Source of the DNA: Alphaproteobacteria bacterium
Lineage (GTDB): Bacteria > Pseudomonadota > Alphaproteobacteria > SMXP01
Direction: 5' to 3'
Length of the DNA stretch: 44,677 nt
Assembly (NCBI GenBank): GCA_021774915.1
Contig: JAJFIO010000114.1
Coordinates: forward strand, 1-44,677
In this document: positions 1,430-20,737 of the stretch, piece by piece
How positions within the stretch are numbered: the stretch's first letter is position 1
Layout: each line of letters begins with the position of its first letter
The notes under the pieces: generated by a model
The model's input: the letters and a program-made list of their open reading frames with translations, nothing else
Databases searched by the model: none
Told to the model about the DNA's origin: nothing
Program-made: the position numbers and the translations under genes

Positions 1430-3514
1430 CTAAAATGAGTGAAAGCTCCCGCCTTGCTTTGCCAATCTTTCAATCAACGGCGCGGGGGTCCACCAGCGTC
1501 CTCCGTGCTGATCCCTTAAGGCGCAGATAATCTCAAATGTTTTCGCCAGTCCCACATGGTCGGCATAATGCATCGGGCCGCCACGATAGCGCGGGAAGCC
1601 GTAGCCATTAACATAGACGACATCGATATCGCCGGAGCGGTAGGCAATGCCTTCCTCCAAGATCTGCGCGCCGATATTCACCAGTGCAAAAATGCAGCGC
1701 TGGACGATTTCATCATCTGAGATAGATCGCCGCGCAATCCCCCGGGCTTCAGCTTCTTGCCCAATGATGGCGTCAACAGCCAAGTCAGGGATGGGTGTGC
1801 GGTTGCCCACCTCATAGCGGTAAAACCCGGCACCGGTTTTTTGCCCTTTGCGCCCCATTTCCACCAGACGGTCATGCACCGCAAAAGCGTTGGCATCATA
1901 AGCGGAAGGATCAAGCGCCTGGCGGATCATAGTGCCGATATCAATCCCCGCCATATCGGTCACTGCAATCGGGCCCATCGGCATGCCGAAATCATAAAGC
2001 GCCTGATCAATCTGCCCGGGCGAGGCCCCTTCGAGCAGCATCAACCCGGCCTCGCGGGCATAACCCTGCAACATGCGGTTGCCGATAAAACCAAAGCAGA
2101 CACCAGCCACCACGCCCACCTTGCCGATGCGTTTCGCCAAGGCGCTCACTGTGCTTAAAACATCCGGCGCGGTTTTGTCCCCGCGCACGATCTCAAGCAA
2201 TTTCATGACATTGGCCGGGCTAAAAAAATGCAGGCCTACCACATCTTCTGGGCGCTTTGTCGCCGCTGCAATCTCGTTGACATCAAGATAAGACGTATTG
2301 GTCGCTAATATGGCGCCAGGCTTCACCACGTCATCCAGAGTCTCAAAGACTTGTTTCTTAACCTCCATTTTCTCAAAGACAGCTTCAATTACAAGATCCA
2401 TGTCCGCCAGGTTGGCATATTCGGTCGTGCCCGAAATGCGGCCCATACATTCATCCGCTTGGGCTTGAGTAATCCGCCCGCGTTTGACGTTTCCCCCATA
2501 GTTATTGCCGACACGGGCAAGCCCGGCGTCGAGCGCATCTTGCGCAATCTCAAGGAGGGTGACATCAATCCCGGCAGAGCTGAACGCCATGGCAATGCCG
2601 CCGCCCATGGTTCCAGCGCCGATGATCCCGACTTTTTTGATGAGGCGTTTAGCCGTGTCTTTGGGCAGATTCGGGATATGACCACAGGCGCGCTCGGCAA
2701 AGAACAAATGCCGCTGCGCCGCTGATTGCGGCGACGCACGTCGTTCCAGCGTGATCTCCCGCTCCCGCGCCACGCCTTGGGGGTAAGGCAGCAGTGCCGC
2801 CTCAACCGCATCGACGCAAGCCTGCGGCGATTCAAAGCCGCGCTTGCTTTTAGCGAGGGACTTACGGGTGTCGTCAAAAAGGCCCGCCGGAATTGACTGA
2901 GGGTCGATCATGATTTCAGAAAGGCGGCGCACGCCCTCGCCTTGCGCAAGAATGTCACGGGCAAAATCCGCCGCTTGCCCCATCAGATCGTCACCAGACA
3001 GCCGGTCGAGTATGCCGAGGGATAATGCTGTGTCCGCGGTGATCTGCTTGCCTGTGGTGATGAGGTCAAGAGCCGCTTTCACGCCGACCAGACGCGGTAG
3101 GCGCTGGGTGCCCGTAGCACCGGGAATAATCCCTAAAGTCACTTCCGGAAACCCGAGTTTTGTTCCGGTGGCAGCGATCCGGTAATGGCACCCCAGCGCA
3201 ATCTCCAACCCACCGCCCAGCGTAAACCCGTGCAGCGCCGCAATCACCGGTTTGCCTGCCGCTTCCAACGTCTCTACCACTTGGCTCAAATGCGGCGGCT
3301 GAGGCCCTTTGTCGAATTCAGTAATGTCGGCGCCCGCCATGAAGGTGCGGCCGCGCGCGGCCAAAATAATCGCCTCCACCCCGTCATCTTCGAGCGCCTC
3401 AACCAGCCCTTCTAAAATACCTTGCCGCACGCCGTGGGAAATGGCGTTCACAGGGGGGTTATCGACCCACACATAAGCCAGCCCATCTTTTACTTCCATA
3501 GAAACCACAGACAT
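1430..3514 (-). CDS. Fused enoyl-CoA hydratase / 3-hydroxyacyl-CoA dehydrogenase (FadB/FadJ-like; PaaF/PaaH-type functions)
   Basis: N-terminal crotonase 'ALHGFTLGGGLEIALGCHYRIA', then Rossmann 'KVGIIGAGTMGGGIAMAFSSAG' and HCDH C-terminal domains. Confidence 0.88.
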   Translation of the reverse strand: MSVVSMEVKDGLAYVWVDNPPVNAISHGVRQGILEGLVEALEDDGVEAIILAARGRTFMAGADITEFDKGPQPPHLSQVVETLEAAGKPVIAALHGFTLGGGLEIALGCHYRIAATGTKLGFPEVTLGIIPGATGTQRLPRLVGVKAALDLITTGKQITADTALSLGILDRLSGDDLMGQAADFARDILAQGEGVRRLSEIMIDPQSIPAGLFDDTRKSLAKSKRGFESPQACVDAVEAALLPYPQGVAREREITLERRASPQSAAQRHLFFAERACGHIPNLPKDTAKRLIKKVGIIGAGTMGGGIAMAFSSAGIDVTLLEIAQDALDAGLARVGNNYGGNVKRGRITQAQADECMGRISGTTEYANLADMDLVIEAVFEKMEVKKQVFETLDDVVKPGAILATNTSYLDVNEIAAATKRPEDVVGLHFFSPANVMKLLEIVRGDKTAPDVLSTVSALAKRIGKVGVVAGVCFGFIGNRMLQGYAREAGLMLLEGASPGQIDQALYDFGMPMGPIAVTDMAGIDIGTMIRQALDPSAYDANAFAVHDRLVEMGRKGQKTGAGFYRYEVGNRTPIPDLAVDAIIGQEAEARGIARRSISDDEIVQRCIFALVNIGAQILEEGIAYRSGDIDVVYVNGYGFPRYRGGPMHYADHVGLAKTFEIICALRDQHGGRWWTPAPLIERLAKQGGSFHSF

Positions 3515-3556: not shown

Positions 3557-4363
3557 TTACGCCTTAAATTTCGGCGGACGTTTTTCTTGGGCAGAGGCAA
3601 GACCTTCTTTCACGTCAGGCAATCTGAACCCGAGAAACTCCAACGCCAGGGACGTGTCGAAATTCGGGCCCGCCAGACGCAGCCAGTTATTGAGCGCATA
3701 TTTGGTGAAACTGAGCGCACTGGCGCTGCCCTCACTCAACTGAAGGGCTGTTTTGAGCGCCGTCTCATAAACTTCTTCGTCATCGACGCATAAAGAGACA
3801 AGCCCCATCTGCTCCGCCGCTTCACCCAAAATCGGCGTGTTGGTCATCAGATGATATTTGGCTTTGGCCAACCCGCACAGCAACGGCCAGATGATCACCG
3901 CATGATCCCCCGCCGCAACGCCAAGCTTGACATGACCGTCGAGAATGCGGGCGTTCTTTCCTGCAATGGAGATATCCGCCAACAAGGCCACCGCCAGACC
4001 GGCGCCGACCGCAACGCCGCGGATAGCCGACACCACCGGCTTGCTGCAATTGATGATATTGTATACGAGATCGCGGGCTTCCTTCCACACACGTAACAAA
4101 ACGGCGTCATGGTCGATCATATCTTCAATGAGGGAAAAATCCCCACCGGAAGAAAAATTGTCCCCCGCCCCGCGCACTAGAACCACTCTTACGGCCTCAT
4201 CGCCATCTATCTCAGGCCAGAGCGATGCCAGATCGGTGTGCATGCGGGCGTCCGCTGCGTTCAGTTTCCCGCTCTTTTCAAGGATGACCTCAAGAATGCT
4301 TGTCCGGGGCTCAGCAAAAGTGAGGCTGGGAAACCGCGCCTGATATTTTTCTAATGTGATCAT
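3557..4363 (-). CDS. Enoyl-CoA hydratase/isomerase family protein
   Basis: Crotonase signature '[24 protein letters not shown]'; 268 aa; co-directional with paaZ. Confidence 0.85.
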
Positions 4364-4373
4364 GGGTTAAGAG

Positions 4374-6404
4374 TTAGCCGCGCATGGCGTTCATGGTCAA
4401 GAGATCATAAGTGGCGACGGGCTCTCCCTCCTGGTTAGTCACCTCGACATCCCAGCGCACTTCGCCATAGCCAGCGCCGATCCGCTCGGTTTTTTGCTTG
4501 CAAGTGAGTCTAACCTGGATGCGATCGCCGGGATAGACTGGCTTAGAGAAGTTCAGATTCTCCAAGCCATAATTCGCCAGGACAGGCCCTGGCGCCGGAT
4601 CGACAAAAAGACCCGCCGCCGCGGATAGAATGAGATAACCATGGGCGACCCGGCCCTCGAAAAACGGATTGGCCTTCGCCGCTTCCTCATCCATATGGGC
4701 ATAAAATGTATCGCCGGTGAGAGCGGCAAATGCCTCCACGTCTTTCAAGTTGATTTCACGCGATTCTGTATGCAGCGTTGTGCCGATGGCAAGATCCTCA
4801 AAATGTTTGCGGAAAGGATGCTCGGCACCGGTGATTTCATGCGCCCCTTTCTGCCAGACATCCGTAATCTCAGCCAGCATCGCGGGTGATCCCTGAAGGG
4901 CCGTGCGCTGCATGTAATGCATGACGCTGCGGATGCCGCCCAGTTCCTCGCCGCCGCCGGCCCGACCCGGCCCGCCATGAACAAGATGCGGCAAGGGCGA
5001 GCCATGGCCTGTCGATTCCTTGGCGCAGTCGCGATTGATGAGAGCCAGACGGCCATGATAACAGGCGGTTCCATAAACCATCTCGCGGGCGATTTTAGCG
5101 TCATGAGTAAAAAGCGAGCCCACCAGACTTCCTTCGCCTTTGCGGGCCAGGTCAATTGCATCGTTTGTGCTCGAATAGGGGATCAGGGTCGTCACGGGAC
5201 CGAACGCTTCCACCCGGTGCACCGCTTCGTCCGATCCGCCCTCACGCATCCGCAATAAGGTTGGCGCGACAAAGGCCCCTTTACCCATATCCGCATCGAC
5301 AAGCGGAAACTCCTGTCCGCCGCCATAAACGATCTCGGCTTCTTGCCCCAGTTCGCGAACCCGCGCGTTGACATCATCGCGCTGCGCCAGACCCACAAGC
5401 GGGCCCATGGCGACGCCGTCAGATCGCGGATTGCCGATCACCACTTTTTCCAACCGCTCCGCCAGCGCGCCTTCAACCTCTTCAATGTAATTTGAGGGCA
5501 CGATAGCACGGCGAATGGCGGTGCATTTCTGTCCTGTTTTCACCGTCATCTCCGCCGCGATTTCTTTCACGAAGAGGTCAAATTCAGGCGAGCCAGGCGC
5601 GGCGTCCTTTCCCAGAATGGAGCAATTCAGCGAGTCCGTCTCTGCAACAAAGCGCGTGGCATTAGCCACAATCTCAGGATGGGTTGCCAATTTATGCCCC
5701 GTCGAGGCTGAGCCGGTAAACACCACCGCATCCTGACAGGAGACATGATCAAGCATATCGCCTAAGGACCCGCATACAAGCTGCACTGCCCCTTCAGGCA
5801 CAATCCCGGACTCGATGATCCGCCGAAAAACCCGCTCACTCAAATAAGCACTCGCTGTTGCCGGTTTAACCACCGCCGGAACGCCTGCCAGAAGCGACGT
5901 TGCCAGTTTTTCCAGCATTCCCCAGCAGGGAAAATTAAACGCGTTGATCTGGACCGCAACCCCTTCTCTGGGCACAAAAATATGCTGGCCGACAAAGGTT
6001 CCGTTTCGCGAGACAATTTCCGGCGGGCCATCGACGATATGATGGGCATCCGGCAACTCCCGCCGCCCCTTTGAGGCGTAGACGAATAATGTTGCAAATC
6101 CCCCATCAACATCTATCCACGTATCGCTTTTGGTGGCGCCCGTTGCCAGTGAGAGTTCATAAAATTCGTCTTTGAATTGACCCAAATGCTGCGCGATAGC
6201 TTTGAGCATCAGCCCCCGCTCATGAAATGTCAGATTGCGGAGGTTAGGCCCCCCAACCCCGCGGCTGTGATCCAGAATGCGCCGCATGTCGAGCCCATGA
6301 CTGCTACACGTCGCCACCACGTCCCCGGTCGAAGCGTCATGCAAATCGACAAAACCGCCTGACGCCGTCACCCACTCTCCATTGACATAATTTTGCAATT
6401 TCAC
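4374..6404 (-). CDS. paaZ: PaaZ bifunctional protein: aldehyde dehydrogenase plus C-terminal MaoC-like hydratase (oxepin-CoA hydrolase / semialdehyde dehydrogenase)
   Basis: N-terminal 'LQNYVNGEWVTASGG' ALDH with 'TGQKCTAIRRAIVP'; C-terminal MaoC hot-dog 'DTFYAHMDEEAAKANPFFEGRVAHGYLILSAAAGLF'. GTG at 6404 is the likely start; the ORF extends to 6434. Confidence 0.92.
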   Translation of the reverse strand: MKLQNYVNGEWVTASGGFVDLHDASTGDVVATCSSHGLDMRRILDHSRGVGGPNLRNLTFHERGLMLKAIAQHLGQFKDEFYELSLATGATKSDTWIDVDGGFATLFVYASKGRRELPDAHHIVDGPPEIVSRNGTFVGQHIFVPREGVAVQINAFNFPCWGMLEKLATSLLAGVPAVVKPATASAYLSERVFRRIIESGIVPEGAVQLVCGSLGDMLDHVSCQDAVVFTGSASTGHKLATHPEIVANATRFVAETDSLNCSILGKDAAPGSPEFDLFVKEIAAEMTVKTGQKCTAIRRAIVPSNYIEEVEGALAERLEKVVIGNPRSDGVAMGPLVGLAQRDDVNARVRELGQEAEIVYGGGQEFPLVDADMGKGAFVAPTLLRMREGGSDEAVHRVEAFGPVTTLIPYSSTNDAIDLARKGEGSLVGSLFTHDAKIAREMVYGTACYHGRLALINRDCAKESTGHGSPLPHLVHGGPGRAGGGEELGGIRSVMHYMQRTALQGSPAMLAEITDVWQKGAHEITGAEHPFRKHFEDLAIGTTLHTESREINLKDVEAFAALTGDTFYAHMDEEAAKANPFFEGRVAHGYLILSAAAGLFVDPAPGPVLANYGLENLNFSKPVYPGDRIQVRLTCKQKTERIGAGYGEVRWDVEVTNQEGEPVATYDLLTMNAMRG

Positions 6405-6460
6405 GGTGAAACTCCCTCTTATACAGCATCCCAAAGACTCTGATCACAGAGCCGATTATA

Positions 6461-6498
6461 TGATACAATATTGATAATATTGCAATATTATTGTATCA
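6461..6498. promoter_or_regulatory. Inverted-repeat operator TGATAC-N26-GTATCA between paaZ and paaX
   Basis: Sequence atgatacaatattgataatattgcaatattattgtatcat; arms ATGATACAATA/TATTGTATCAT pair perfectly; located in a divergent intergenic region. Confidence 0.75.
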
Positions 6499-6621: not shown

Positions 6622-7560
6622 ATGTCTCAAGGTTTTCAAAAGACCATCGATACACTTGTGGCGAATTTTGCCAATCAACGCCCGATCCGCACCGGTTCTT
6701 TGATCGTCACCCTGTTTGGCGATGCCATCCTGCCTCGCGGAGGAACAGTCTCTCTCGCCAGCCTCGTCCGGGTTCTTGAAACCTTTGGTCTCAGCGAAAG
6801 ACTGATTCGCACGGCGGCTTTCCGCTCAACTAAAAACGGCTGGTTGACCGCCACAAAAATCGGACGGCAAAGCTATTACAGCTTGACCGAATCGGGGCGT
6901 CGACAATTCGATGAAGCCAGCAGACGGATTTATGGCGATGTTGCTGACACTTGGGATGGCGCGTGGACGCTGATCATTCTTCCCCAAGGACTGGAGGGCA
7001 AACGCGACACCATCCGCAAAGATTTGATCTGGCTCGGATTTGGACAGATTACAACCGGACTGCTGGGGCACCCCTCGATCGATTCAACACCCACAATCCG
7101 GCATCTGTCTGATCATGGCGTTCTTGATCAGGTTATCATCATGCACGCCAGATTAGATCGTGTGACGTCCAATCAATCGCAAAATGACATGGTGCGCTCA
7201 TGCTGGCCTTTAGGCGAAATCGAAGACCAGTACCGACATTTCCTGAAAACCTTCCGCCCGGTCTACAAAGCGGCGCGTTCTTCAAAAACGCTCCCACCCC
7301 ATCTTTGCCTCCTGGCTCGAACCATACTCATTCATGAATACAGAAAAATTATTCTTCACGACCCTCTGCTGCCCCGTGAACTTCTGCCCTCAAATTGGCT
7401 CGGCACTTCAGCCTACCAACTTTGCCGTAATCTCTATGGACTTATTTATCAGAATGCGGACAAATATCTCACGAGTCATCTGGAATCAGCCGAAGGTCCT
7501 TTGCAGAACCCTGGGCGTAATTTTGAAAAACGCTTTGGCGGCCTGCCTCACAGCATATAG
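6622..7560 (+). CDS. paaX: PaaX-family transcriptional repressor
   Basis: 'RPIRTGSLIVTLFGDAILPRGGTVSLASLVRVLETFGLSERLIRTAAFRSTKNGWL' is a PaaX N-terminal winged-helix pattern; divergent from paaZ. Confidence 0.9.
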   Translation: MSQGFQKTIDTLVANFANQRPIRTGSLIVTLFGDAILPRGGTVSLASLVRVLETFGLSERLIRTAAFRSTKNGWLTATKIGRQSYYSLTESGRRQFDEASRRIYGDVADTWDGAWTLIILPQGLEGKRDTIRKDLIWLGFGQITTGLLGHPSIDSTPTIRHLSDHGVLDQVIIMHARLDRVTSNQSQNDMVRSCWPLGEIEDQYRHFLKTFRPVYKAARSSKTLPPHLCLLARTILIHEYRKIILHDPLLPRELLPSNWLGTSAYQLCRNLYGLIYQNADKYLTSHLESAEGPLQNPGRNFEKRFGGLPHSI

Positions 7561-7571
7561 AGAATTCATGC

Positions 7572-8636
7572 TCAGCTGTTCTGCGGTGCTTGGGTATATT
7601 GGTCCCCCGGAAGCATTTCGGGTTTGTGCTGCCCAAAATAGCCTTCCGTATGGATAAGCGCCGGTGACGCACCCAAAGCCTTGGTCTTAGCAACACAGGC
7701 ATCGACAAAGTCTGGACTGCCGGCAATGAAAACACTGTGGCGTGAGAGATCCGGCACAACTTCAGCTAATATGTCTGGAATGCGGCCTTGAAAACCATCA
7801 CTCTTTTCCCTCGTTAGGGTGTAGAGGAATTTAAAATTACGGTATTTTTCCTGCCAATATTCCATTAAACCCAGGTCGTAGACATCTGCGCGGGTACGGG
7901 CCGAAAAAAGGATGGTCACAGGATAAGCAAACCCCCGCCGCAGAGCAGCATCCGCTAAAGCCAGAAGTGGAGCCAGGCCTGAGCCCGCCGCGAGGCAAAG
8001 TATCGGCGATTCAACGCCAGGATCTCCGATAAACGTGCCGTAAGGTCCAGAGATCTGAACACGACTGCCTTCATGCAAATCATCATGAATCCAACGGCTG
8101 GTCACGCCATCATCGACACGGGCAATCTGCAAGACGATTTCACCATTTTGCCGGGGCGCATTTGCTATCGAATAAGACCGACTGGGTACGCCATGCTCTT
8201 CAGAACCCATCATGATATATTGACCCGGCCAAAATCTCATCGGCTCACCCACCGGTCTTAGTCTGAGTTCCATGATACTCTGTGTACGTGGCACGCGGTC
8301 AACGACAATATAGGAACTGTTTTCGAGGGGAGGAAAAAGTTTTGGTCTCGCGTCTTCAGTGCCCCATTCGATTTCAAGCACATCATCAAGTGGCTTGGCC
8401 ATGCACATCAGGCCAAAGCCTTTGGCGCGGTCCTCCTGGGACAATGCCATATCCAGCACAAAGCCTTGATCGAAGCGCCCTTGACGCACCTTGATTTTGC
8501 ACTCGCCGCACGCACCCGCCCGACAATTATTCGGCAGCGCGTAGCCCGCAGCTTCCAAAGCAGAGAGCACTGTATTTTCCGGCTGGCATTCAATCTCCTG
8601 ACCGGATGGAAACAGACGAATCTTCGACATCAGCAC
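7572..8636 (-). CDS. Oxygenase reductase: N-terminal plant-type 2Fe-2S ferredoxin plus FAD/NAD(P) FNR domains
   Basis: 2Fe-2S motif 'CRAGACGECKIKV...LMC'; FAD 'RSYSIANAP'; NAD 'LCLAAGSGLAPLLALA'. Domain order (Fd then FNR) differs from PaaE (FNR then Fd). Confidence 0.9.
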   Translation of the reverse strand: MLMSKIRLFPSGQEIECQPENTVLSALEAAGYALPNNCRAGACGECKIKVRQGRFDQGFVLDMALSQEDRAKGFGLMCMAKPLDDVLEIEWGTEDARPKLFPPLENSSYIVVDRVPRTQSIMELRLRPVGEPMRFWPGQYIMMGSEEHGVPSRSYSIANAPRQNGEIVLQIARVDDGVTSRWIHDDLHEGSRVQISGPYGTFIGDPGVESPILCLAAGSGLAPLLALADAALRRGFAYPVTILFSARTRADVYDLGLMEYWQEKYRNFKFLYTLTREKSDGFQGRIPDILAEVVPDLSRHSVFIAGSPDFVDACVAKTKALGASPALIHTEGYFGQHKPEMLPGDQYTQAPQNS

Positions 8637-8699
8637 CCTTTTTACGCATGAACGTCAGGGATCTTACCTGTCATACCTTTCCGATAAGATCAAGCTGAC

Positions 8700-9725
8700 C
8701 TAAAAAACCGGGATGATATCTTCCATCTCAACGTCGGAAATCTCTTTACCTGTAATACCGACTTCGGGGATGGCGGGAAACTCGGTCCCGTATTTGTCGA
8801 GCACACCTTTGAGGTTCAACATGGCATTGCGCCAGTTTTCTTTCTTCTGGTCATAGGTTGGGATTCCAAAGCCGGCTTTACGCGCCACTTCATCGCATGC
8901 GCGTTGATTGGCAATAAAGTCTTGCGGAATATCCCAGAATTCTTCCGGCGGCTCAAACAAAACACCTGACAGGAACAGATAGCCTGCGCGAATCTGCCTG
9001 GTGATGATCGCCTTGTCCTCATCTTTGAGATGCGGATAATCGCGTTCCATCAGCGACATGCAGATCGCCATGTGCCGCCCCTCATCCCGGCCGATATTGC
9101 GAAAAGCCTCCTGGAAAACAGGTTCCGTGCATCCCGCCGCCATCTGATGGAAAATGGTCGCCGCGGCAATCTCTCCCATCAGAAACGAACTGAACAAAAC
9201 AGCGAGACTGTATTTCGGAACGGCGTTCTTATAGCCCTCCCAATAGCGCGCGCCATTGTAGTAAAGCCATTTAACGTTTTTCTGTGCTCTCAGACCCAGC
9301 TCCGATTTGGGCTCATGGGTCAGGTAACTCGTCGATCCCAAAAGTTTTGTGATTGCCAAGCCGCACATCTGTTCATGGTTCTGCTCATCACGGGTTACGG
9401 AGAAAAAACATCTGCGCACCGGATCCTCTTCGTGGGCCTCATAGGTTTTGATCAGCGCAGCTGCAAAAACCGGCGGGGCAGAAGCATCAAATACAGACAA
9501 GATGGACCACCAATAGGCGATCGCTTCACGCTCTTCCCATGAATATTTCTCGACATCGAACGTATCCCAACTCAATTTCGTCGGATCCCAGTTTTCGCGC
9601 TGGGCGGCTTCCCATATCTCCTCCATCTTTTTGGTTTTGGATTCCCAACTCAGAGGATAGACATTGGGCTGCTGCGTTTCAGGAGGAAACTCAACCTTAT
9701 GGGCGATTCTGTCTTTGGGGCTCAC
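8700..9725 (-). CDS. Ferritin-like/R2-like diiron carboxylate oxygenase candidate
   Basis: Two EXXH motifs ('DEQNHEQM', 'RDEGRHMAI') plus upstream Glu-containing helices ('IKTYEAHEEDP', 'FLMGEIAAATIFHQM'); same strand as and about 60 bp upstream of the reductase. GTG at 9725 is the likely start; the ORF extends to 9785. Confidence 0.7.
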   Translation of the reverse strand: MSPKDRIAHKVEFPPETQQPNVYPLSWESKTKKMEEIWEAAQRENWDPTKLSWDTFDVEKYSWEEREAIAYWWSILSVFDASAPPVFAAALIKTYEAHEEDPVRRCFFSVTRDEQNHEQMCGLAITKLLGSTSYLTHEPKSELGLRAQKNVKWLYYNGARYWEGYKNAVPKYSLAVLFSSFLMGEIAAATIFHQMAAGCTEPVFQEAFRNIGRDEGRHMAICMSLMERDYPHLKDEDKAIITRQIRAGYLFLSGVLFEPPEEFWDIPQDFIANQRACDEVARKAGFGIPTYDQKKENWRNAMLNLKGVLDKYGTEFPAIPEVGITGKEISDVEMEDIIPVF

Positions 9726-9787
9726 GGCACGTTCTCCTCGTTTAATCTTTCCCTGGCGGGCCGGATGACCTTCGCTAGGGCGCAATA

Positions 9788-9825
9788 TGATACATTATAT
9801 TTATAATATCAATATTTTTGTATCA
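9788..9825. promoter_or_regulatory. Second TGATAC-N26-GTATCA operator, upstream of the diiron oxygenase operon
   Basis: tgatacattatatttataatatcaatatttttgtatca: same half-sites and same 26-nt spacing as at 6461-6498; overlaps the tetR stop codon. Confidence 0.72.
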
Positions 9826-10461
9826 CTTAAGGGCGCTTTCTGGCTCTTTGGACTCAAATGCCAGAAAATGGCCATTTTTCAGCCCTCCTATGAAAAGATC
9901 TGCAGCCAGATCAGCAATCTGTTCGCTGGTCAGCCCCTTTGCGGGGTCAAACCATGTGTAAGTCCAGTTGATCATCCCTAAAAATAACATCGAAAACACA
10001 GTGAGATTGGCTCTTGAAGCGTGCCCACCCCCTAAAATATCGCCGATAAGGGTGGAGATGAGACTCACCACACCGTCCTCTTGAGCAATGATGAGATCCC
10101 GATCCTCTGCACCCAACGCCTCAAGCTCATTGAGCAAGACGATATGCTTGGCTTTCGCCTTCTCATAAAGCTGTAAAAAATCCCGCGTCAGATGACGGAA
10201 TTTATCTTCCGGGTCGCCCGACCCCCTAACGATGGCGCGCGCGGTCTGGCTCAGCGCCCTTGTATGTCCCTCCACCGAACAAAACAACATTTCCCGTTTT
10301 GATGAGAAATAATGGTAAAGCAAGGACTTTGATATTTTACACGATGCGGCTATTTCGGATATCGAAGTTTTATGAAACCCGTGTGCGGCGAAGAGCTCCG
10401 TAGAAGTATCGATGATATGCTGTCGTCGTTCGTCATAATCGGCAGATTGGGTCCGCGCCAT
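9823..10461 (-). CDS. TetR-family transcriptional regulator (PaaR-like by context)
   Basis: HTH 'TSISEIAASCKISKSLLYHYFSSKREML'; downstream of paaG-thiolase-paaK on the same strand. Confidence 0.87.
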   Translation of the reverse strand: MARTQSADYDERRQHIIDTSTELFAAHGFHKTSISEIAASCKISKSLLYHYFSSKREMLFCSVEGHTRALSQTARAIVRGSGDPEDKFRHLTRDFLQLYEKAKAKHIVLLNELEALGAEDRDLIIAQEDGVVSLISTLIGDILGGGHASRANLTVFSMLFLGMINWTYTWFDPAKGLTSEQIADLAADLFIGGLKNGHFLAFESKEPESALK

Positions 10462-10504: not shown

Positions 10505-11821
10505 TCAGGCGGGTCTGGTTCTTGCGTGACGCATATCAATCACACGGGCCGCTTTTCCTTCAGATCTTTCCAGTTTCATAGGCTCTTCCACATGAACCGT
10601 CGTACTCACCCCGACCATCACCTTGATTTGGTGCTTGAGATCCTGCGCGGTATTTAGGCGGTTTTGAGTATCTACCGCACCTTGTAAAGAGGAACATTCC
10701 ACGCGCACAGTGAGGGAGTCGAGCGCTCCTTCGCGGTGGATCTCCAGAACATAATGAGGCGACAAGCGATCATCTTTCAAGATCAGCTCTTCGATCTGTG
10801 TGGGAAAAACGTTCACGCCTCGGATGATCATCATATCATCACTGCGCCCTCTTATGCGACCCATGCGCCGCATAGAGCGCGCCGTGCCGGGAAGCAGACG
10901 CGTGAGATCCCGTGTTCGATAACGGATGACCGGCATTGCTTCTTTGGTAAGAGACGTAAAAACCAACTCGCCTTCCTCACCATCTTCCAACACGTCGCCT
11001 GTTTCGGGATTGATAATCTCGGGATAAAAATGATCTTCCCAGATATGAGGGCCGTCTTTTGTTTCTATGCATTCATTGGCGACGCCGGGTCCCATCACTT
11101 CCGACAGGCCATAAATATCGACAGCGTCGATATTAAAACGCCCCTCGATTTCCCGGCGCATTTCATCCGTCCATGGCTCCGCCCCGAAAATACCAACGCG
11201 CAGAGAAACTTCGCGCGAATCAAGCCCCTGGCGCATAAACTCATCGGCCAGAGCCAACATATAGGACGGTGTCACCATGATGATATCGGGTTTAAAATCC
11301 TGCATCAGTTGCACCTGGCGCTCCGTCGCCCCGCCCGACATCGGAACTACCGTGCAGCCCAATCGCTCCGCGCCGTAATGCGCCCCCAATCCGCCGGTAA
11401 AAAGCCCGTAGCCATAGGCGACATGAACCATATCGCCCGGCTTGCCACCCGCCGCCCGAATGGAGCGGGCGACGACATCAGCCCAGATATCAATATCGTT
11501 TTTGGTGTAACCGACAACCGTGGGCTTGCCGGTGGTGCCGCTTGATGCATGAATGCGCGCAACCTTTTCACGCGGCACGGCAAACATGCCGAAGGGATAA
11601 TTCGCCCGCAGATCGTCTTTTACCGTAAACGGAAAGAGACTAAGATCTTTCAAAGACTTCAGATCGCCGGGATGCACGCCTTTGTCTTCAAAAGCCTTGC
11701 GGTAAAAAGGAACATTGTCATACGTGTGCACAAGCGTCTTTTTCATCCGCTTAAGCTGAACCGCAGCAATCTCATCCCGAGACGCCTTTTCCAGATGATC
11801 TAATCTCGAGCAATCCGGCAT
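10505..11821 (-). CDS. paaK: Phenylacetate-CoA ligase
   Basis: 'IHASSGTTGKPTVVGYT', 'DIYGLSEVMGPGVANEC', 'YRTRDLTRLL', 'GVNVFPTQIEELIL' are PaaK signatures. ORF extends to 11851; ATG at 11821 preferred. Confidence 0.93.
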   Translation of the reverse strand: MPDCSRLDHLEKASRDEIAAVQLKRMKKTLVHTYDNVPFYRKAFEDKGVHPGDLKSLKDLSLFPFTVKDDLRANYPFGMFAVPREKVARIHASSGTTGKPTVVGYTKNDIDIWADVVARSIRAAGGKPGDMVHVAYGYGLFTGGLGAHYGAERLGCTVVPMSGGATERQVQLMQDFKPDIIMVTPSYMLALADEFMRQGLDSREVSLRVGIFGAEPWTDEMRREIEGRFNIDAVDIYGLSEVMGPGVANECIETKDGPHIWEDHFYPEIINPETGDVLEDGEEGELVFTSLTKEAMPVIRYRTRDLTRLLPGTARSMRRMGRIRGRSDDMMIIRGVNVFPTQIEELILKDDRLSPHYVLEIHREGALDSLTVRVECSSLQGAVDTQNRLNTAQDLKHQIKVMVGVSTTVHVEEPMKLERSEGKAARVIDMRHARTRPA

Positions 11822-11858
11822 TGGCCTAAAGCCTCCCTCCCCGTCTATCAATTAATGG

Positions 11859-13064
11859 TCACACCCGTTCGAAGATGGCGGCGATGCCCTGCCCCACGCC
11901 AATACACATGGTGCAGAGAGCATAGCGGCCCTGGCGGCGCTTCAGTTCAAGACAGGCGGTCAGCGCCAGGCGCGCGCCGCTCATACCCAGAGGGTGGCCA
12001 AGAGCAATGGCGCCGCCATGAGGATTGACGTGCGGTGCATCATCGGCCAACCCGAGCGCGCGCATCACTGCCAAGGATTGCGCCGCAAAAGCTTCATTCA
12101 GTTCAATGACGTTCATATCGTTAATATTCAGACCGGCTTGGCCCAGGAGTTTCTTCGTCGCGGGCACAGGGCCGACTCCCATGATGCGCGGGGGCACACC
12201 GTGTACGGCACTGCCGACAAAGCGCGCACGCACGTTGAGATCATATTCCTTGACCGCTTTTTCCGAGGCGACGATCATCGCGCATGCGCCGTCATTGACG
12301 CCCGATGCATTGCCTGCGGTAATAGTCCCGCCGGCCTTAAACGGGGTCGGCAGAGAGCTTAGCTTTTCAAGTTTGGTTTCAGGTCGCGGATGCTCATCGC
12401 GCGTGATGTCCTTTTCTTGTTGGCGGGAAACGCGCACGCGCACGGGAATGATCTCGTCATCGAATATGCCTGCTTCTTGAGCCGCCCCCGCCTTTTGCTG
12501 CGAGCGCCAAGCGAACTGATCCTGGTCTTCTCGTGAAATCTGAAAATCTGTCGCCACATTTTCCGCCGTCTCAGGCATAGAATCCACACCGTAGTGCTTT
12601 TCCATCAGCTTATTCACGAAGCGCCAGCCGATCGTGGTGTCATAGATTTCCGCCTTGCGCGAAAACGCGCCCTCCGCCTTGCCCATCACAAAAGGCGCAC
12701 GGCTCATGCTCTCCACACCGCCGGCAATCACCAGATCCGCCTCGCCGCATTTCACCAGACGCGCCGCCTGAGCGATGGCATCGAGTCCCGATCCGCACAA
12801 ACGGTTCACGGTTGCGCCCGGCACCACTTCCGGCAGGCCGCTGAGCAGAACCGCCATGCGCGCCACATTGCGATTGTCCTCGCCCGCCTGATTGGCGCAG
12901 CCCAGAATCACATCATCAAGACGCGCCCAATCCACTTGTGAAGTGCGCTCCATCAGTGCGCGCAAAGGCACCGCCGCCAAGTCATCAGGGCGAACAGAAG
13001 ACAGCGCGCCGCCATACCGCCCAATCGGGGTGCGCACACCATCACATATAAAAGCATCATTCAT
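11859..13064 (-). CDS. paaJ: Acetyl-CoA acyltransferase (3-oxoadipyl-CoA/3-oxo-5,6-dehydrosuberyl-CoA thiolase type)
   Basis: 'VNRLCGSGLDAIAQAARLV' nucleophile motif, 'NPHGGAIALGHPLGMSGAR', 'CTMCIGVGQGIA'. Confidence 0.88.
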   Translation of the reverse strand: MNDAFICDGVRTPIGRYGGALSSVRPDDLAAVPLRALMERTSQVDWARLDDVILGCANQAGEDNRNVARMAVLLSGLPEVVPGATVNRLCGSGLDAIAQAARLVKCGEADLVIAGGVESMSRAPFVMGKAEGAFSRKAEIYDTTIGWRFVNKLMEKHYGVDSMPETAENVATDFQISREDQDQFAWRSQQKAGAAQEAGIFDDEIIPVRVRVSRQQEKDITRDEHPRPETKLEKLSSLPTPFKAGGTITAGNASGVNDGACAMIVASEKAVKEYDLNVRARFVGSAVHGVPPRIMGVGPVPATKKLLGQAGLNINDMNVIELNEAFAAQSLAVMRALGLADDAPHVNPHGGAIALGHPLGMSGARLALTACLELKRRQGRYALCTMCIGVGQGIAAIFERV

Positions 13065-13081: not shown

Positions 13082-13873
13082 TTAACTGCCGGTATAATGC
13101 GGCGTTCTCTTGCCTAAAAATGCCGCCACGCCTTCGGCATAATCGTCCGAATTACCCGCCTGGCGCTGAAGCTCTTCCTCAACATCAAGCTGCGCCTCCA
13201 GCGTATTTTCCAGCGACAGCGCCAGCGCTTTTTTGGTGAGGCCGTACCCTAAGGTCGGTTGACCGGCCATTTCCAATACCAGTTTTTCCGCCTCACCCAT
13301 CAAATCCTCATCAGGGTACGCTTTCCAGATCATCCCCCAGTCGGCCGCCTGCACCCCCGTGATCGGCGTTGCCAACATCGCGATGGCCTTGGCCCGCGGC
13401 AGACCAATGAGCCGGGGCAGGAAAAACGTGCCGCCGCTGTCGGGGATCAGCCCCAGCTTTGAAAAGGCCTGAATAAAACGCGCCCCTTCCGCCGCCAGAA
13501 CGATATCGCACGCCAGCGCGAGATTGGCGCCCGCCCCGGCTGCCGTGCCGTTCACCGCGCAGAGGGTTGGTTTAGGCAAAGAGACGAGTTTAAGAATAAG
13601 GGGGTTATAGCCTTGCCTCAGCGATGCGCCGAGATCCGTTTTCGCGCCTTGGGCTTTGACCGCGCGATCATTGAGGTCTTGACCCGAACAAAAGCCCCGC
13701 CCCGCCCCCGTCAGCAGCACCGCGCGAATATCATCGCGCGTCGCCGCCTCATCCAGCGCCGCGCCCAGCTCCTCCAGCATCTGCCGGGTGACCGCGTTCA
13801 GCCGCTCTGGGCGATTGAGCGTCAGTTTAGCCACCCCCGCCTCAACGGTGAAAAGAATGGTTTCAAAGGTCAT
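13082..13873 (-). CDS. paaG: Enoyl-CoA hydratase/isomerase, PaaG-type (epoxyphenylacetyl-CoA isomerase)
   Basis: Crotonase 'AVNGTAAGAGANLALACDIVLAAEGARFIQAFSKLGLIPDSGGTFFLPRLIG' closely fits PaaG; operonic with thiolase and paaK. Confidence 0.87.
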   Translation of the reverse strand: MTFETILFTVEAGVAKLTLNRPERLNAVTRQMLEELGAALDEAATRDDIRAVLLTGAGRGFCSGQDLNDRAVKAQGAKTDLGASLRQGYNPLILKLVSLPKPTLCAVNGTAAGAGANLALACDIVLAAEGARFIQAFSKLGLIPDSGGTFFLPRLIGLPRAKAIAMLATPITGVQAADWGMIWKAYPDEDLMGEAEKLVLEMAGQPTLGYGLTKKALALSLENTLEAQLDVEEELQRQAGNSDDYAEGVAAFLGKRTPHYTGS

Positions 13874-13960: not shown

Positions 13961-14141
13961 CATATTTTAAAATCAAGTCCCTGTCTATGGCAGATTAAAT
14001 GACAAGAGGCGCCGCTAGCCCAAACCAGCCTGTTGTGTTTACTCTCAAACACCAGAGGATATATTTTAAGCTTAAATCTTTATCGAGCGTGTGGTACAGG
14101 CAATCATTCACTCTCCCCTTAAACTTCGGCACCGCAAAACC

Positions 14142-15755
14142 ATGACCGTGTATCGCGAATTCATCAAATCAAATCTCGACTTCTCAACGAGGCCTTTTTT
14201 GTGCTTGCCGGAAGGCGCAGGAGATCTGACCTATGGCGCCGCAGGGACCCAAGTGGAAGACCTGCGCGCCTGCTATTCACAAGCCGCTTACGGCCTGGGC
14301 CACAGGGTCTGTTTGGTCCTCGACAACCGGCCGGAGTTTTTCATCCATTTTTTAGCCTTAAACGCTTTGGGCGTCAGCGTCATCCCGGTTAGCGCCGGAC
14401 TGAGACCAGAAGAGATCGCTTTCATTTTCGAGCGCAGCGATACCGATCTCGTGGTCAGCCTCGATCAGCACAAGAGCCTGGTGGCAGAAGCCATTCGACA
14501 GTGCGATACAGCTATTCCCCTTGCGGCCTTAGAACACCTTTCTCCAGTGCCCAAGCCCTTTTCGCAGGCACGGCGCGGCGCGCCGGATCTGGCCAGCGAA
14601 GCCGCCATGCTGTTCACCTCGGGCACAACAGGCAAGCCGAAGGGATGTCTTCTTTCCAATGAGTACTTTACCGGCCTTGGGCGCTGGTATGCTGATATGG
14701 GGGGATTGTGCGCTCTGGAGCCGGGTGCGGAACGCCTGATCACGCCGCTGCCGGTCAGCCATATGAACGCCATGGCCTGCTCGTTCATGGCCATGCTTAT
14801 GTCTGGCGGATGCATCATTCAGCTTGACCGTTTTCACCCCTCAACCTGGTGGGCTAGCGTGCGCGAGGCGCGCGCCACGATCCTCCATTATCTGGGCGTC
14901 ATGCCGGCCATGCTCCTCAATGCTCCGCCAGAGGAAGAAGATGATTTCAGTGCCCAGATTAAATTTGGATTTGGCGCCGGCGTCGACCCCAAGCATCACC
15001 GTACTTTTGAAGAGCGCTTCGGCTTTCCGCTGATCGAAGCCTGGGCCATGTCTGAGACCGGTGCGGGGGCCTGCATTGCGGCCACCCAAGAGCCGCGCCA
15101 TGTGGGCACACGCTGCTTTGGCAAAGCCTTGCCCGGCCTTGAAACCCGGATGGTTGACGAACAGGGCGAAGACGTGGTCCAAGGCACGCCCGGCGAACTT
15201 CTGGTGCGCCGCAAAGGGCCCAACCCGCGGCAATATTTCTTCAGTGGCTATTACAAGGACGCCCAAGCCACGGCGCAAGCCTGGGAGGGCGGATGGTTTC
15301 ACACCGGCGATGTCGTGCGCAAAGATAGCGAGGGATATTATTATTTCGTCGATCGGCGCAAAAACATTATCCGCCGCAGCGGTGAAAACATCGCCGCGGT
15401 CGAAGTTGAAGGCGTTTTGATGCAAAGCTCCCTTGTCGAGAACTGCGCCGTGGCCCCCATCCCGGACGAGATCCGGGGAGAAGAAGTGATGGCGTTGATC
15501 GTCGTCGTGCAAGGACAAGCAAAAACGATAGAGACGGCTGAAAAAATTGCCGCTTCTTGCCGGGGCGCTCTCGCCTATTACAAAGCACCCGGCTACATTG
15601 CCTTGGTCGATAGCTTGCCGATGACGGGTTCGCAAAAGTTACAACGCGGCAGGATTAAAGAAATCTGCCGTGATCTGGCGGCGCGTGGGGAGTGTTTTGA
15701 TCTGACCCCCATGAAATCACGCTCACGGCAAAACAACAAAGGCGCACGCGCGTGA
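14142..15755 (+). CDS. AMP-dependent acyl-CoA synthetase/ligase
   Basis: 'AMLFTSGTTGKPKGCLLSNEYF', 'EAWAMSETG', 'GWFHTGDVVRKDSEGYYYFVDRRKNIIRRSGENIAAVEVE'. ORF opens at 14091 (GTG); ATG 14142 preferred. Confidence 0.9.
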   Translation: MTVYREFIKSNLDFSTRPFLCLPEGAGDLTYGAAGTQVEDLRACYSQAAYGLGHRVCLVLDNRPEFFIHFLALNALGVSVIPVSAGLRPEEIAFIFERSDTDLVVSLDQHKSLVAEAIRQCDTAIPLAALEHLSPVPKPFSQARRGAPDLASEAAMLFTSGTTGKPKGCLLSNEYFTGLGRWYADMGGLCALEPGAERLITPLPVSHMNAMACSFMAMLMSGGCIIQLDRFHPSTWWASVREARATILHYLGVMPAMLLNAPPEEEDDFSAQIKFGFGAGVDPKHHRTFEERFGFPLIEAWAMSETGAGACIAATQEPRHVGTRCFGKALPGLETRMVDEQGEDVVQGTPGELLVRRKGPNPRQYFFSGYYKDAQATAQAWEGGWFHTGDVVRKDSEGYYYFVDRRKNIIRRSGENIAAVEVEGVLMQSSLVENCAVAPIPDEIRGEEVMALIVVVQGQAKTIETAEKIAASCRGALAYYKAPGYIALVDSLPMTGSQKLQRGRIKEICRDLAARGECFDLTPMKSRSRQNNKGARA

Positions 15756-16930
15756 CTATGACACCGAAATCTTTTGAAGGCGTGGCCCTGGTGGCCCCGG
15801 TAGCTGTGCCTTATGTCCGCCATTCAGATCATGGCGCCGCGTGGTTCATCGGCCGGGCGCTCAAATCTATGATCACCACCACCGGACTTGAAAAATCAGA
15901 CGTGGACGGACTGGCCATTGCCAGCTTTTCTCTGGCTCCGGACACGGCGGTGGTTTTAAGCGAACATTTCGGCCTCACCCCGCGTTTTTTGGAACACATT
16001 CCCATGGGTGGCGCCAGCGGCATTGTCGCCCTGCGCCGGGCGGCGCGCGCCATCCAGGCGGGGGATGCCGAAGTTGTAGCGTGCATCGGCGGCGACACCA
16101 TGGCCAAGGGCGGTTTTGCCGATCTCATTTCCAATTTCAGCCGCTTCTCAACAGATGCGGTCTTCCCTTACGGCGCGGCGGGACCCAATGGCGTATTTGC
16201 GGGCATCACCCAGAACTATATGGCGCGCTATGGCGTTACCCGGGCAGATTTTGGCCGGGTCTGCCTGTCCCAGCGCCGCAACGCCCAAAGCTTTCCCCAT
16301 GCCCTGCTGCAAAAACCCATGACCATGGAGGATTACCTGAACGCCCGGCCCATTGCCGGTCCGCTGCATCTTTTTGACTGCGTGATGCCCTGCGCCGGGG
16401 CTGACGGCTTTCTCGTGATGTCCACAGACAGGGCAAAAAAACTGGGCCAGCCCTATGCGGAAATTTTAAGCGCCGAAGAATTGCATAACGCTTATCCGGA
16501 AGACCCTATTGCCACGAGAGGCGGCTGGGCGCTCTATCGCGACGCCCTCTATGATGCCGCCGGAGCGGGGCCCGGCGATATGGATTTTCTTCAGACCTAT
16601 GACGATTACCCGGTGATTGTGATGATGCAGATCGAAGACTTAGGCTTTTGCGCCAAGGGCGAGGCGGCCCGCTTTGTCCGCGAAACCTCTCTTGATGTTG
16701 ACGGCGGCGGCCTGCCCCACAACACGTCCGGAGGCCAGCTCTCCTGCGGGCAGGCGGGGGCGGCGGGGGGTTTTCTCGGACTGGTGGAAGGTCTGGCCCA
16801 AGTGACCGGGCAGGCCTTGGGCCAAGCGGTTTCAGACGCCCGTATCGGACTTGTCAGCGGCTATGGCATGGTCACTTATGACCGCTGCCTCTCGAGCGCC
16901 GCGGTCATTATTGCGCGGGGGCCACAATGA
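15752..16930 (+). CDS. Thiolase-like/SCP2-type protein lacking the canonical Cys nucleophile
   Basis: Thiolase-superfamily layout with 'HIPMGGASGIVALRRAARAI' where thiolases carry Cys, and 'GGGLPHNTSGGQLSCGQAGAAGG'; overlaps ligase and DUF35 genes. Confidence 0.85.
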   Translation: MTMTPKSFEGVALVAPVAVPYVRHSDHGAAWFIGRALKSMITTTGLEKSDVDGLAIASFSLAPDTAVVLSEHFGLTPRFLEHIPMGGASGIVALRRAARAIQAGDAEVVACIGGDTMAKGGFADLISNFSRFSTDAVFPYGAAGPNGVFAGITQNYMARYGVTRADFGRVCLSQRRNAQSFPHALLQKPMTMEDYLNARPIAGPLHLFDCVMPCAGADGFLVMSTDRAKKLGQPYAEILSAEELHNAYPEDPIATRGGWALYRDALYDAAGAGPGDMDFLQTYDDYPVIVMMQIEDLGFCAKGEAARFVRETSLDVDGGGLPHNTSGGQLSCGQAGAAGGFLGLVEGLAQVTGQALGQAVSDARIGLVSGYGMVTYDRCLSSAAVIIARGPQ

Positions 16931-17400
16931 GCACTCCCCTCACACCACCGTCATCCCGCACCCCGCTTTGGGCTGAGATCACCAAAGCGGCAAAAGAAAG
17001 GCGCTTCACTCTTCAAGTGTGCGCCTCCTGCGCCACGGTGCAATATCCACCACGCGAAGTTTGCCGCTCCTGCCTATCGGACAGGCTCGACTGGAGCCAA
17101 GTCGATCCTGATGGCACAGTGCTGACGTGTACGGAGCTCCATGTTTCCAGCGATCCCTTTTTCCAAAACCACATGCCGTGGGTTATGGGCACGGTGCACC
17201 TCGACTGCGGACCTGTCATCTTCGCCCATCTGGCGCCAGGCGCGCACAAAATAAGCGGCCACGTGACGATGATCAATCGCCTTGACCCGTCAGGCCAGGG
17301 CGTTTTTATCGCACTGCCTAAATCTGCCCACACTCCGCCTCAAGATTTCGACTTTGCTGATCTGCTAACTGGGCAAAATGAAGAGGGGAAGAACTCATGA
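16927..17400 (+). CDS. DUF35 / Zn-ribbon OB-fold protein (thiolase partner)
   Basis: 'CASCATVQYPPREVCRSCLSDRLDW' zinc ribbon followed by an OB-fold; directly downstream of the thiolase-like gene. Confidence 0.9.
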   Translation: MSTPLTPPSSRTPLWAEITKAAKERRFTLQVCASCATVQYPPREVCRSCLSDRLDWSQVDPDGTVLTCTELHVSSDPFFQNHMPWVMGTVHLDCGPVIFAHLAPGAHKISGHVTMINRLDPSGQGVFIALPKSAHTPPQDFDFADLLTGQNEEGKNS

Positions 17401-18134
17401 CCAGTGAACAGGATCGCGGGAGCGCGCTCGTCACCGGCGGCTCCACCGGAATCGGCGAAGCCATTTGCCGGCATTTGCTGGATGCGGGATATGACGTTAT
17501 CTCACTCGCCCGCCGCAAAGCGCCCTTCACCCATGATCGCCTCACATCCGTTGAGGTGGATCTCACCGACCGCACAGCCACCCGCCAGGCGGCGCAAGAG
17601 ATCTGTGCGCAACACAATGTGTTGAACGTGGTTCACAATGCCGGGATAATCCGGCCTGCCTTGCTGGCGGATGTCAAATTGCAAGACCTCGACTATCTCA
17701 CCAATCTTCATCTGGCGGCGGTTTTGATTATCGTTCAGGAAGCGCTGCCAGCCATGAAAAAGGCGGGCTATGGCCGCATCGTTAACATCTCATCGCGCGC
17801 CGCTCTTGGCCTTGAAACGCGTTCTGTCTATTCCGCCACCAAATCCGGTATGCTCGGGCTGACCCGAACCTGGGCGCTGGAACTGGCGCCTTCGGGGATA
17901 ACCGTTAATGCGGTCTCCCCCGGCCCCATCGTCACCGACATGTTTCATGAATTGGTCCCGGCAGACAGCTCCAAGAAAACTTCCCTGGCGGGGTCCATTC
18001 CCGTCCGGCGCCTCGGCACAGCCGATGACGTGGCGCGCGCAGTGATGTTTTTCCTGGCGCGTGACAGCGATTTTATCACCGGCCAGAATCTTTTTGTCTG
18101 CGGGGGAACCAGCATCGCCTCTTTAGCGCTTTAA
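17397..18134 (+). CDS. SDR-family oxidoreductase
   Basis: 'ALVTGGSTGIGEAICRHLL', 'YSATKSGMLGLTRTWALELAPSGITVNAVSPGPIVTDMF'. Confidence 0.9.
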   Translation: MTSEQDRGSALVTGGSTGIGEAICRHLLDAGYDVISLARRKAPFTHDRLTSVEVDLTDRTATRQAAQEICAQHNVLNVVHNAGIIRPALLADVKLQDLDYLTNLHLAAVLIIVQEALPAMKKAGYGRIVNISSRAALGLETRSVYSATKSGMLGLTRTWALELAPSGITVNAVSPGPIVTDMFHELVPADSSKKTSLAGSIPVRRLGTADDVARAVMFFLARDSDFITGQNLFVCGGTSIASLAL

Positions 18135-18174
18135 TTTAAGATATTTTTCGTTTGGACTTATTCATAAGTTCTCT

Positions 18175-18243
18175 GGATCCCGGATCTAACATTCGTCTAT
18201 CAAAAACCTACGGTTTTTGCGCTCATGTAACGTCCGGGATGAC
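18175..18243. repeat. Structured convergent intergenic element: outer stem ATCCCGGA/TCCGGGAT with inner hairpin AAAAACC-TAC-GGTTTTT
   Basis: Arms at 18177-18184 / 18233-18240 and 18202-18208 / 18212-18218; sits between convergent SDR and marR genes. Confidence 0.5.
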
Positions 18244-18268
18244 GCAGATCAGACTTGGCTACCCCTTC

Positions 18269-18748
18269 TCATTCATAGGGTGAGCGGATGAGGTTTTTCT
18301 GAATGTGACGTAGAACAGAGTTGAGCTGATTGATCTCAGTATTCTCCAAGCCGTCAAAAGCGCGTTCAAAAATATTTCCCGCAACTTTTTTGACTTGTCT
18401 CAGAGCATCGCGCCCCTGCCCGGTCAGGAAAACTTCCGTCACGCGATTATCCTGCGCGCGCGGCGCACAGCGCACCAGATCCTCCTCCTGCATACGCTGG
18501 ACGATCCGCGTGATGGTCGGCAGCTTCATCACCGCCTTGTCAGCAATGCCGCTGACGCTACACGGACTTCTATCCCCCAAAATCATAAGAACACGCCAAC
18601 GAGGCGGATCCATATCGATGGATTTCAAAACCGAACTCATGACGTCGCTATAGGTGGACCAAGCCTGGGCCATCAGAAAAAAAGGGTATTTCTCCAGCTC
18701 AAAACTTTGAGATGCGGGATGGCCGGTTTTTTTCGCTTTTTTTTGCAT
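18269..18748 (-). CDS. MarR-family transcriptional regulator
   Basis: 'CSVSGIADKAVMKLPTITRIVQRMQEEDLVRCAPRAQDNRVTEVFLTGQGRD' winged helix; divergent from the Rieske oxygenase. ORF extends to 18781 (TTG); ATG 18748 preferred. Confidence 0.9.
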   Translation of the reverse strand: MQKKAKKTGHPASQSFELEKYPFFLMAQAWSTYSDVMSSVLKSIDMDPPRWRVLMILGDRSPCSVSGIADKAVMKLPTITRIVQRMQEEDLVRCAPRAQDNRVTEVFLTGQGRDALRQVKKVAGNIFERAFDGLENTEINQLNSVLRHIQKNLIRSPYE

Positions 18749-18825
18749 GGTGCTGGAACGGAGTGCTATTCTCGAAAACAAGGTGAGGAAAACTTAGGTA
18801 AGCTGGTGCAGTATGGCGCGATATT

Positions 18826-18841
18826 ACTTGAATATTCAAGT
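18826..18841. promoter_or_regulatory. Perfect 16-bp palindrome ACTTGAATATTCAAGT, candidate MarR operator
   Basis: Perfect dyad in the divergent marR / Rieske-oxygenase intergenic region. Confidence 0.7.
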
Positions 18842-18892
18842 GATTTTTGTTACAAACAACCTTCATGAGCGGGCTCAAGGGAGAAGCAACAA

Positions 18893-20206: not shown

Positions 20207-20209
20207 GCC

Positions 20210-20710
20210 ATGACGAGCGTCACATCACTTGCCGAACTGGACCTTAAAACAGTCGAGGAGTTTCTTTTTCATGAAGCGCGCCTGCTAGATGAAAAAAAAT
20301 GGCAAAAATGGGATGGGCTCTTTACCACAGACGGGACATATTGGATGCCCGCCTCCGTCGATCAACCGGACCCTTTGAATTATGTCTCCCTTATTTATGA
20401 GGACAAGCTGTTAAGGGCCGTGCGGATAGAACGGTTCGACAACGAGAACGCCCACTCGCTGCAACCAATCCCACGCAGCGTCCACCTCGTCTCTAATGTT
20501 ATGATTGATGCCTATGATGCGGTAAGCGGCACCTGCACTGTGAACTCAAGGTTCGTGGTTTTTGAATACCGCCGCGATGAACAGCGCATCTATGGCGGCG
20601 CTTATATTCATGACCTCATCTTTGACGGAACGGATTTCAAAATAAAACAGAAACGCGTCAACTTAGTGAATTGCGAAAGCGCGCTGGATAACATCAACGT
20701 TTATCTTTAA
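20210..20710 (+). CDS. Ring-hydroxylating dioxygenase beta subunit
   Basis: 166 aa; 'VEEFLFHEARLLDEKKWQKWDGLFTTDGTYWMPAS' typical of the SnoaL-like small subunit; directly downstream of alpha. Confidence 0.92.
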   Translation: MTSVTSLAELDLKTVEEFLFHEARLLDEKKWQKWDGLFTTDGTYWMPASVDQPDPLNYVSLIYEDKLLRAVRIERFDNENAHSLQPIPRSVHLVSNVMIDAYDAVSGTCTVNSRFVVFEYRRDEQRIYGGAYIHDLIFDGTDFKIKQKRVNLVNCESALDNINVYL

Positions 20711-20737
20711 AATTAGAGCGCCATCAGGGAGAAACAT

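Follow-up and report, generated by a model that had tools for sequence, protein, structure and literature searches.

A two-component diiron system proposed as an alternative to PaaABC(D)E for phenylacetyl-CoA epoxidation

The epoxidation of phenylacetyl-CoA is the committed, oxygen-dependent step of the phenylacetate pathway, a pathway that about 16% of sequenced bacterial genomes are reported to encode (PMC13186573, PMC9493321). The canonical enzyme, PaaABC(D)E, combines a diiron oxygenase (PaaA and PaaC belong to PF05138) with a NAD(P)H/FAD/[2Fe-2S] reductase (PaaE, TIGR02160), and is encoded among other paa genes under the control of PaaX. A 2026 survey proposed PaaA and PaaC as robust markers of the pathway and recorded configurations without an epoxidase as rare (PMC13186573). 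A gap-filling study based on fitness data reported an alternative oxepin-CoA hydrolase for the PaaN-type route; as far as the available portion of that paper goes, it describes no alternative epoxidase (PMC9007349). The other described systems that we compared are BoxAB (benzoyl-CoA 2,3-epoxidase), which epoxidizes an aryl-CoA with a single diiron chain and a separate reductase; the AurF/CmlI-type N-oxygenases (PF11583) of amine and antibiotic biosynthesis; and the R2lox and ribonucleotide reductase R2 proteins.

We propose that a diiron protein and its adjoining reductase, both annotated so far only as "hypothetical," form a two-component phenylacetyl-CoA 1,2-epoxidase that replaces the non-homologous PaaABC(D)E. 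We put the probability of this reading at roughly 0.7; the activity itself is inferred.

The window (the whole stretch of 44,677 nucleotides that we analyzed) contains a run of minus-strand genes from 13873 down to 1430. In order, these encode PaaG, the 1,2-epoxyphenylacetyl-CoA isomerase (13082-13873; TIGR02280, 356 bits against a cut-off of 345; 54.6% identical to PaaG from E. coli); a PaaJ/PcaF-type 3-oxoadipyl-CoA thiolase (11859-13064; TIGR02430, 687 bits against 597); the phenylacetate-CoA ligase PaaK (10505-11851; TIGR02155, 738 bits against 646); a TetR-family regulator in a PaaR-like position (9823-10461; Pfam TetR_N and TetR_C_24); the diiron protein; its reductase; PaaZ, the oxepin-CoA hydrolase / semialdehyde dehydrogenase (4374-6434; TIGR02278, 1001 bits against 563); an enoyl-CoA hydratase of the PRK07327 type (3557-4363; NF005595, 414 bits against 292); and a fused enoyl-CoA hydratase / 3-hydroxyacyl-CoA dehydrogenase in the PaaF/PaaH role of the lower pathway (1430-3514; Pfam ECH_1 and 3HCDH). 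The gene for the PaaX repressor lies between the reductase gene and paaZ, on the plus strand (6622-7560; TIGR02277, 287.8 bits against 264.6). PaaZ retains both of its catalytic pairs: Cys/Glu of the aldehyde dehydrogenase (C295, E256) and Asp/His of the hydrolase (D561, H566). The calls for PaaK, PaaG, PaaZ, PaaJ, and PaaX rest on curated NCBIfam cut-offs, and PaaK, PaaG, and PaaZ, which together we took as the mark of the aerobic CoA-dependent phenylacetate pathway, all exceed theirs. The paa cluster of the window thus encodes the reactions on either side of the epoxide, but contains no paaABCDE; the diiron and reductase genes stand where those genes would be expected. The sequence-only reading of the window had claimed this cluster and a gap at ring-1,2-epoxidation, and both hold.

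The sequence-only reading also carried the caveat that canonical paaABCDE could lie elsewhere in the genome. A search by family (PF05138) of the source genome (3.04 Mb in 324 contigs, 92% complete) found no PaaA/PaaC homologue, and neither did the same search of the only congener genome that we tested. Since 4 of 14 control genomes were positive, the search works.

The diiron gene (8700-9725, minus strand) encodes 341 amino acids. Its frame is open to 9785, and we placed the start at the GTG at 9725 (the stop is at 8700) because homologues begin at the equivalent residue. From the sequence alone it had been described as a ferritin-like protein of about 340 residues with two ExxH motifs; indeed, both motifs, each of the form DExxH (E114/H117 and E215/H218), are invariant in 60 homologues. 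So are D80 and E185, and in the structure model these six residues sit on the four helices of the bundle. We infer, with the help of the model, that D80, E114, H117, E185, E215, and H218 are the probable diiron ligands. The AlphaFold2 model, whose alignment left out two plasmid homologues, is confident and all-helical (pLDDT 88). The protein meets our criterion for the ferritin-like diiron carboxylate superfamily, namely a four-helix bundle with two ExxH motifs and further carboxylates.

Among solved structures, R2lox and ribonucleotide reductase R2 have the closest folds, and these are distant (Foldseek E of about 4e-4 to 2e-3, TM of about 0.5, 13-18% identity); a sequence search of the PDB with a profile of the diiron protein gave no significant match. 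As in R2, the first ligand may be an aspartate (D80). Unlike R2lox and R2, the diiron protein has a dedicated reductase, and it has an invariant cysteine (Cys121), seven residues past the glutamate of the first ExxH, at what we take to be the position of the R2 radical tyrosine and of Cys151 in MMOH. Searching NCBIfam with the protein gave no match. The best Pfam match was to PF11583 (AurF), which fell short of the curated cut-off (22.9 versus 29.6 bits); this weak match lies over the helix bundle and recurs in 61 of the 62 members of the alignment. The AurF/CmlI enzymes serve amine or antibiotic biosynthesis, whereas our diiron gene lies among genes for the catabolism of CoA esters and adjoins the gene for a dedicated reductase. 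There was no Pfam match to PF05138, with an hhalign probability of 0.8%, and no detectable similarity to BoxB (0.07%). A search for viral relatives found none. A close match to a family of known, unrelated function would have counted against an epoxidase, and these comparisons produced none.

The reductase (7572-8636, minus strand, 354 amino acids) is BenC/MmoC-like by its domain and family matches, with the domain order ferredoxin [2Fe-2S], FAD, NAD. Its Fer2 domain spans residues 10-82, as compared to residues 267-341 in PaaE from E. coli, where the order is FAD-NAD-Fer2; the proposal that the two orders are opposite was therefore correct. It scores 112 bits against TIGR02160, for which the cut-off is 421, and so does not qualify as a PaaE-type protein; its match to BoxA covers only a short stretch. 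In all 81 of 81 related loci the reductase gene lies directly downstream of the diiron gene, with a median gap of about 100 bp. The pair resembles PaaABC(D)E in its proposed reaction, its cofactors, and its paa context, but a single diiron chain stands in place of PaaA plus PaaC and of PaaB and PaaD. It resembles BoxAB in that one diiron chain, served by its own reductase, would epoxidize an aryl-CoA.

Control by PaaX also seems to be shared. The palindrome TGATAC-N26-GTATCA lies upstream of the diiron gene (9788-9825), where we predict a PaaX operator, and a second exact copy lies between paaZ and paaX (6461-6498). These are the only exact copies in the window; allowing up to 2 mismatches gives 3 sites, with 0.8 expected. 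Similar palindromes precede the diiron gene at four other loci (L001, L024, L070, and L021). The motif resembles PaaX operators, and its placement before the diiron gene and before paaZ/paaX bears out the claim of a putative PaaX-type operator.

In a genome scan, we found 80 loci with a diiron homologue at 72-93% identity, and the Vitreoscilla plasmid pVF1 adds one, so that 81 or more genomes have kept the pair. (More distant homologues occur in Variovorax, at 53% identity, L083, and in Nonomuraea, at 49%, L084. The diiron gene of a Stygiobacter MAG, L036, falls inside the Magnetospirillum group on the gene tree, which is probably due to mis-binning or recent transfer.) Because the pair was too rare in a random sample of the phylum (3 of 398 genomes), co-occurrence was tested in genomes chosen for the diiron homologue. 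Canonical PaaA/PaaC was present in 44 of the 79 tested genomes and absent from 35 (L007 was left out). With the source genome, 36 genomes have the pair without canonical PaaA/PaaC. (In two of these, Azospirillum soli and A. isscasi, a divergent PaaA-like protein of 84 bits is encoded beside the pair; in A. soli it is a PaaA/PaaC-like protein of 272 amino acids, at L093:10831-11646, next to paaX and the pair.) PaaG is present in 36/36 of them at E ≤ 1e-60, in 33 at E ≤ 1e-98, and above the curated cut-off in 32; the background rate in the phylum sample is 56 of 398 genomes at E ≤ 1e-98. A full PaaZ is found in 16 of the 36. We do not regard the PaaZ-negative genomes as a break in the pathway argument, as Tepidiphilus and Rhodobium have PaaN instead. 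The survey of genomes with paa genes and no paaA that the sequence-only reading had called for turns out as predicted, and does so independently in several lineages. On the diiron gene tree, the presence or absence of PaaA switches 8 times or more, and well-supported branches force at least 4 of these switches.

Could the pair instead be an accessory to PaaABCDE, for assembly, protection, or repair, with the canonical genes merely missing from fragmentary genomes? The two systems do occur together in 45 of the 81 genomes (the 44 above and the Vitreoscilla plasmid), many of the pair genomes without PaaA/PaaC are incomplete MAGs, and the source genome is itself in pieces and incomplete. Yet isolates of Sedimenticola (three), Tepidiphilus (two), and Rhodobium orientis have the pair and lack PaaA/PaaC although their paa clusters were recovered. 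Furthermore, among pair-less genomes of the phylum sample, PaaG without PaaA/PaaC is rare: 52 of the 53 with PaaG have a PaaA/PaaC match. (The single exception, G340, has neither system, and its PaaG is not in a paa cluster.) Separate use of the two systems is also suggested by an FNR box that is found on the pair and rarely on paaA. We consider an accessory role very unlikely.

This FNR box (TTGAT-N4-ATCAA, at least 9 of 10 matches) occurs in 38 of 82 regions upstream of the pair; 19 other arrangements of the half-sites gave 0-5, and random stretches about 1. It is found in 33 of the 44 genomes with canonical PaaA/PaaC and in 4 of the 35 without (p = 1.6e-8). With Azospirillum counted once, 22 of 33 carriers of PaaABCDE have it (p = 3.6e-6). 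As related genomes are not independent, these p-values are only indicative. Of the 19 canonical paaA promoters that could be read, 5 have the box, and four of these 5 are from Azospirillum. In these four (L098-L101), an FNR-like site, TTGATCTGTATCAT, lies 61-67 bp before the start of paaA, and a position about 60 bp before the start would suit repression; the perfect site of the Azospirillum pair is at about -187. Judging from these positions, the sequence suggests opposite control by oxygen, with the direction of regulation inferred. In the window, a scan found no convincing FNR site, so that a low-oxygen role is not shown for the source organism. Neither the genomes with both systems nor these sites, which hint at a low-oxygen role, had been noticed in the sequence-only reading.

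The FNR boxes could also mean that the diiron protein is induced by low oxygen for some purpose other than ring chemistry, such as reducing oxygen, peroxide, or nitric oxide, as rubrerythrins do, and that it is near paa genes by chance. Pfam's Rubrerythrin family does have weak similarity to the diiron protein, and a dedicated reductase would suit such a role. But several lineages have the pair within or beside their paa genes, in the window it has a PaaX-type operator, and the genomes without PaaA/PaaC, every one of which has PaaG, seldom have the box. We give this idea hardly any weight.

We also compared gene neighborhoods in other genomes. (Gene calling in GC-rich loci is confused by antisense reading frames, so we used GC content by codon position.) The substitution is clean in the isolate Sedimenticola selenatireducens DSM 17993, which has paaK-J-H-G-F, paaZ-diiron-reductase, and paaX. 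The paa operons of Marinospirillum, Nitrincola, and Comamonas contain the pair between paaK and paaA, and in Vitreoscilla it follows paaZ in the same paa region as the canonical system. A point against our reading is that 12 of the 35 genomes lacking PaaA/PaaC have no other paa gene or paaX near the pair, although assembly ends account for part of this.

These neighborhoods bear on whether the pair oxygenates some other aryl-CoA, or a by-product that the pathway forms (hydroxyphenylacetyl-CoA, indoleacetyl-CoA, or the seven-ring dead-end thioester), while genomes without PaaABCDE use some other, unrecognized epoxidase. In Vitreoscilla, a single cluster contains both systems; an indolepyruvate/Rieske cluster adjoins the paa cluster in the window; and the Variovorax homologue has different neighbors, namely another PaaK-like ligase, an OB-fold/thiolase pair, and indolepyruvate oxidoreductase. 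(Judging by this neighborhood, other aryl-CoA esters may be substrates of the wider diiron family.) However, in both Sedimenticola and the window, the pair lies within a complete phenylacetate set with epoxidation as the sole missing step. Another substrate would also require a second unknown epoxidase in each lineage, and in the loci that we examined, no other oxygenase recurs beside the clusters. We think this explanation unlikely, although less so than the two above.

We therefore return to a second phenylacetyl-CoA epoxidase, because the pair fills the only gap, PaaG is nearly always present, and an oxygen-sensor site is found in genomes with both systems. The evidence is in the sequences (gene content, conservation, co-occurrence, ligand motifs, and operator and FNR-like sites) and supports epoxidation as originally proposed for the pair; the substrate and the reaction are inferred, without biochemistry or genetics, and where both systems are present the pair might act otherwise. 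In the mechanism that we envisage, NADH would reduce the FAD and then the [2Fe-2S] center of the reductase, which would pass electrons to the diiron site. One atom of the oxygen bound there would be inserted into the ring at its C1-C2 bond. PaaG would convert the epoxide to oxepin-CoA; PaaZ, or in other genomes PaaN with a separate hydrolase, would open the ring; and PaaJ with the hydratase and dehydrogenases would complete the pathway. The pair would be the only recognized epoxidase in the source genome (with its PaaX-type operator), Sedimenticola, Arcobacteraceae, and others. Where it coexists with PaaABCDE, as in Azospirillum, Azoarcus, Marinospirillum, and Hydrogenophilus, among others, an FNR/Anr site is usual and the pair is probably a low-oxygen isoenzyme.

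More broadly, we lean slightly towards the view that bacteria have two unrelated epoxidases: PaaABCDE, used when oxygen is plentiful, and a single-chain diiron enzyme under FNR control, of high (inferred) oxygen affinity, for microoxic conditions. The latter would repeatedly have become the only one, and would let microaerophiles and chlorate- or nitrate-respirers attack the ring with traces of oxygen. Carriers of the pair are largely microaerophiles, denitrifiers, or facultative anaerobes.

According to a review, aromatic compounds are degraded by aerobic pathways under anoxia, with biogenic oxygen reused, in the chlorate-respiring strain NSS (cited there as Sedimenticola strain NSS) and in Arcobacter sp. 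CAB; phenylacetate is among the substrates (PMC5748585). This statement concerns the strains only, and their genomes are outside our sample. Our literature search found no description of the pair; it did not cover the primary papers on chlorate-respiring Sedimenticola and Arcobacter, so a prior mention is possible. On the best reading, what is new is a variant enzyme that carries out an established step and belongs to an uncharacterized diiron family, with its activity, substrate, and oxygen affinity inferred. If this is true, then surveys based on PaaA/PaaC overlook entire groups (Sedimenticola, Arcobacteraceae, Tepidiphilus), a function can be assigned to a widespread diiron family now called "hypothetical," and the pair offers a simple two-gene system in which to study the epoxidation of an aromatic ring at a diiron site. 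The FNR-type sites amount to a concrete, testable claim about the degradation of aromatics at low oxygen.

Other genes in the window may relate to aromatic compounds as well. Beside the paa genes, a plus-strand cluster (14091-25330) encodes an acyl-CoA ligase, a thiolase-like protein with a zinc-ribbon protein, an SDR, Rieske oxygenase alpha and beta subunits, a cyclase-family (isatin-hydrolase-like) protein, and indolepyruvate oxidoreductase alpha and beta subunits; it looks like an indole-3-acetate/indolepyruvate route. A 769-amino-acid fusion of a FAD monooxygenase with an Old Yellow Enzyme (29451-31760, minus strand) has the layout of 2-aminobenzoyl-CoA monooxygenase/reductase, which would fit anthranilate coming from the indole cluster. 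Finally, the alpha subunit of a quinohemoprotein amine dehydrogenase (34661-36406, plus strand) could feed phenylethylamine into phenylacetate.
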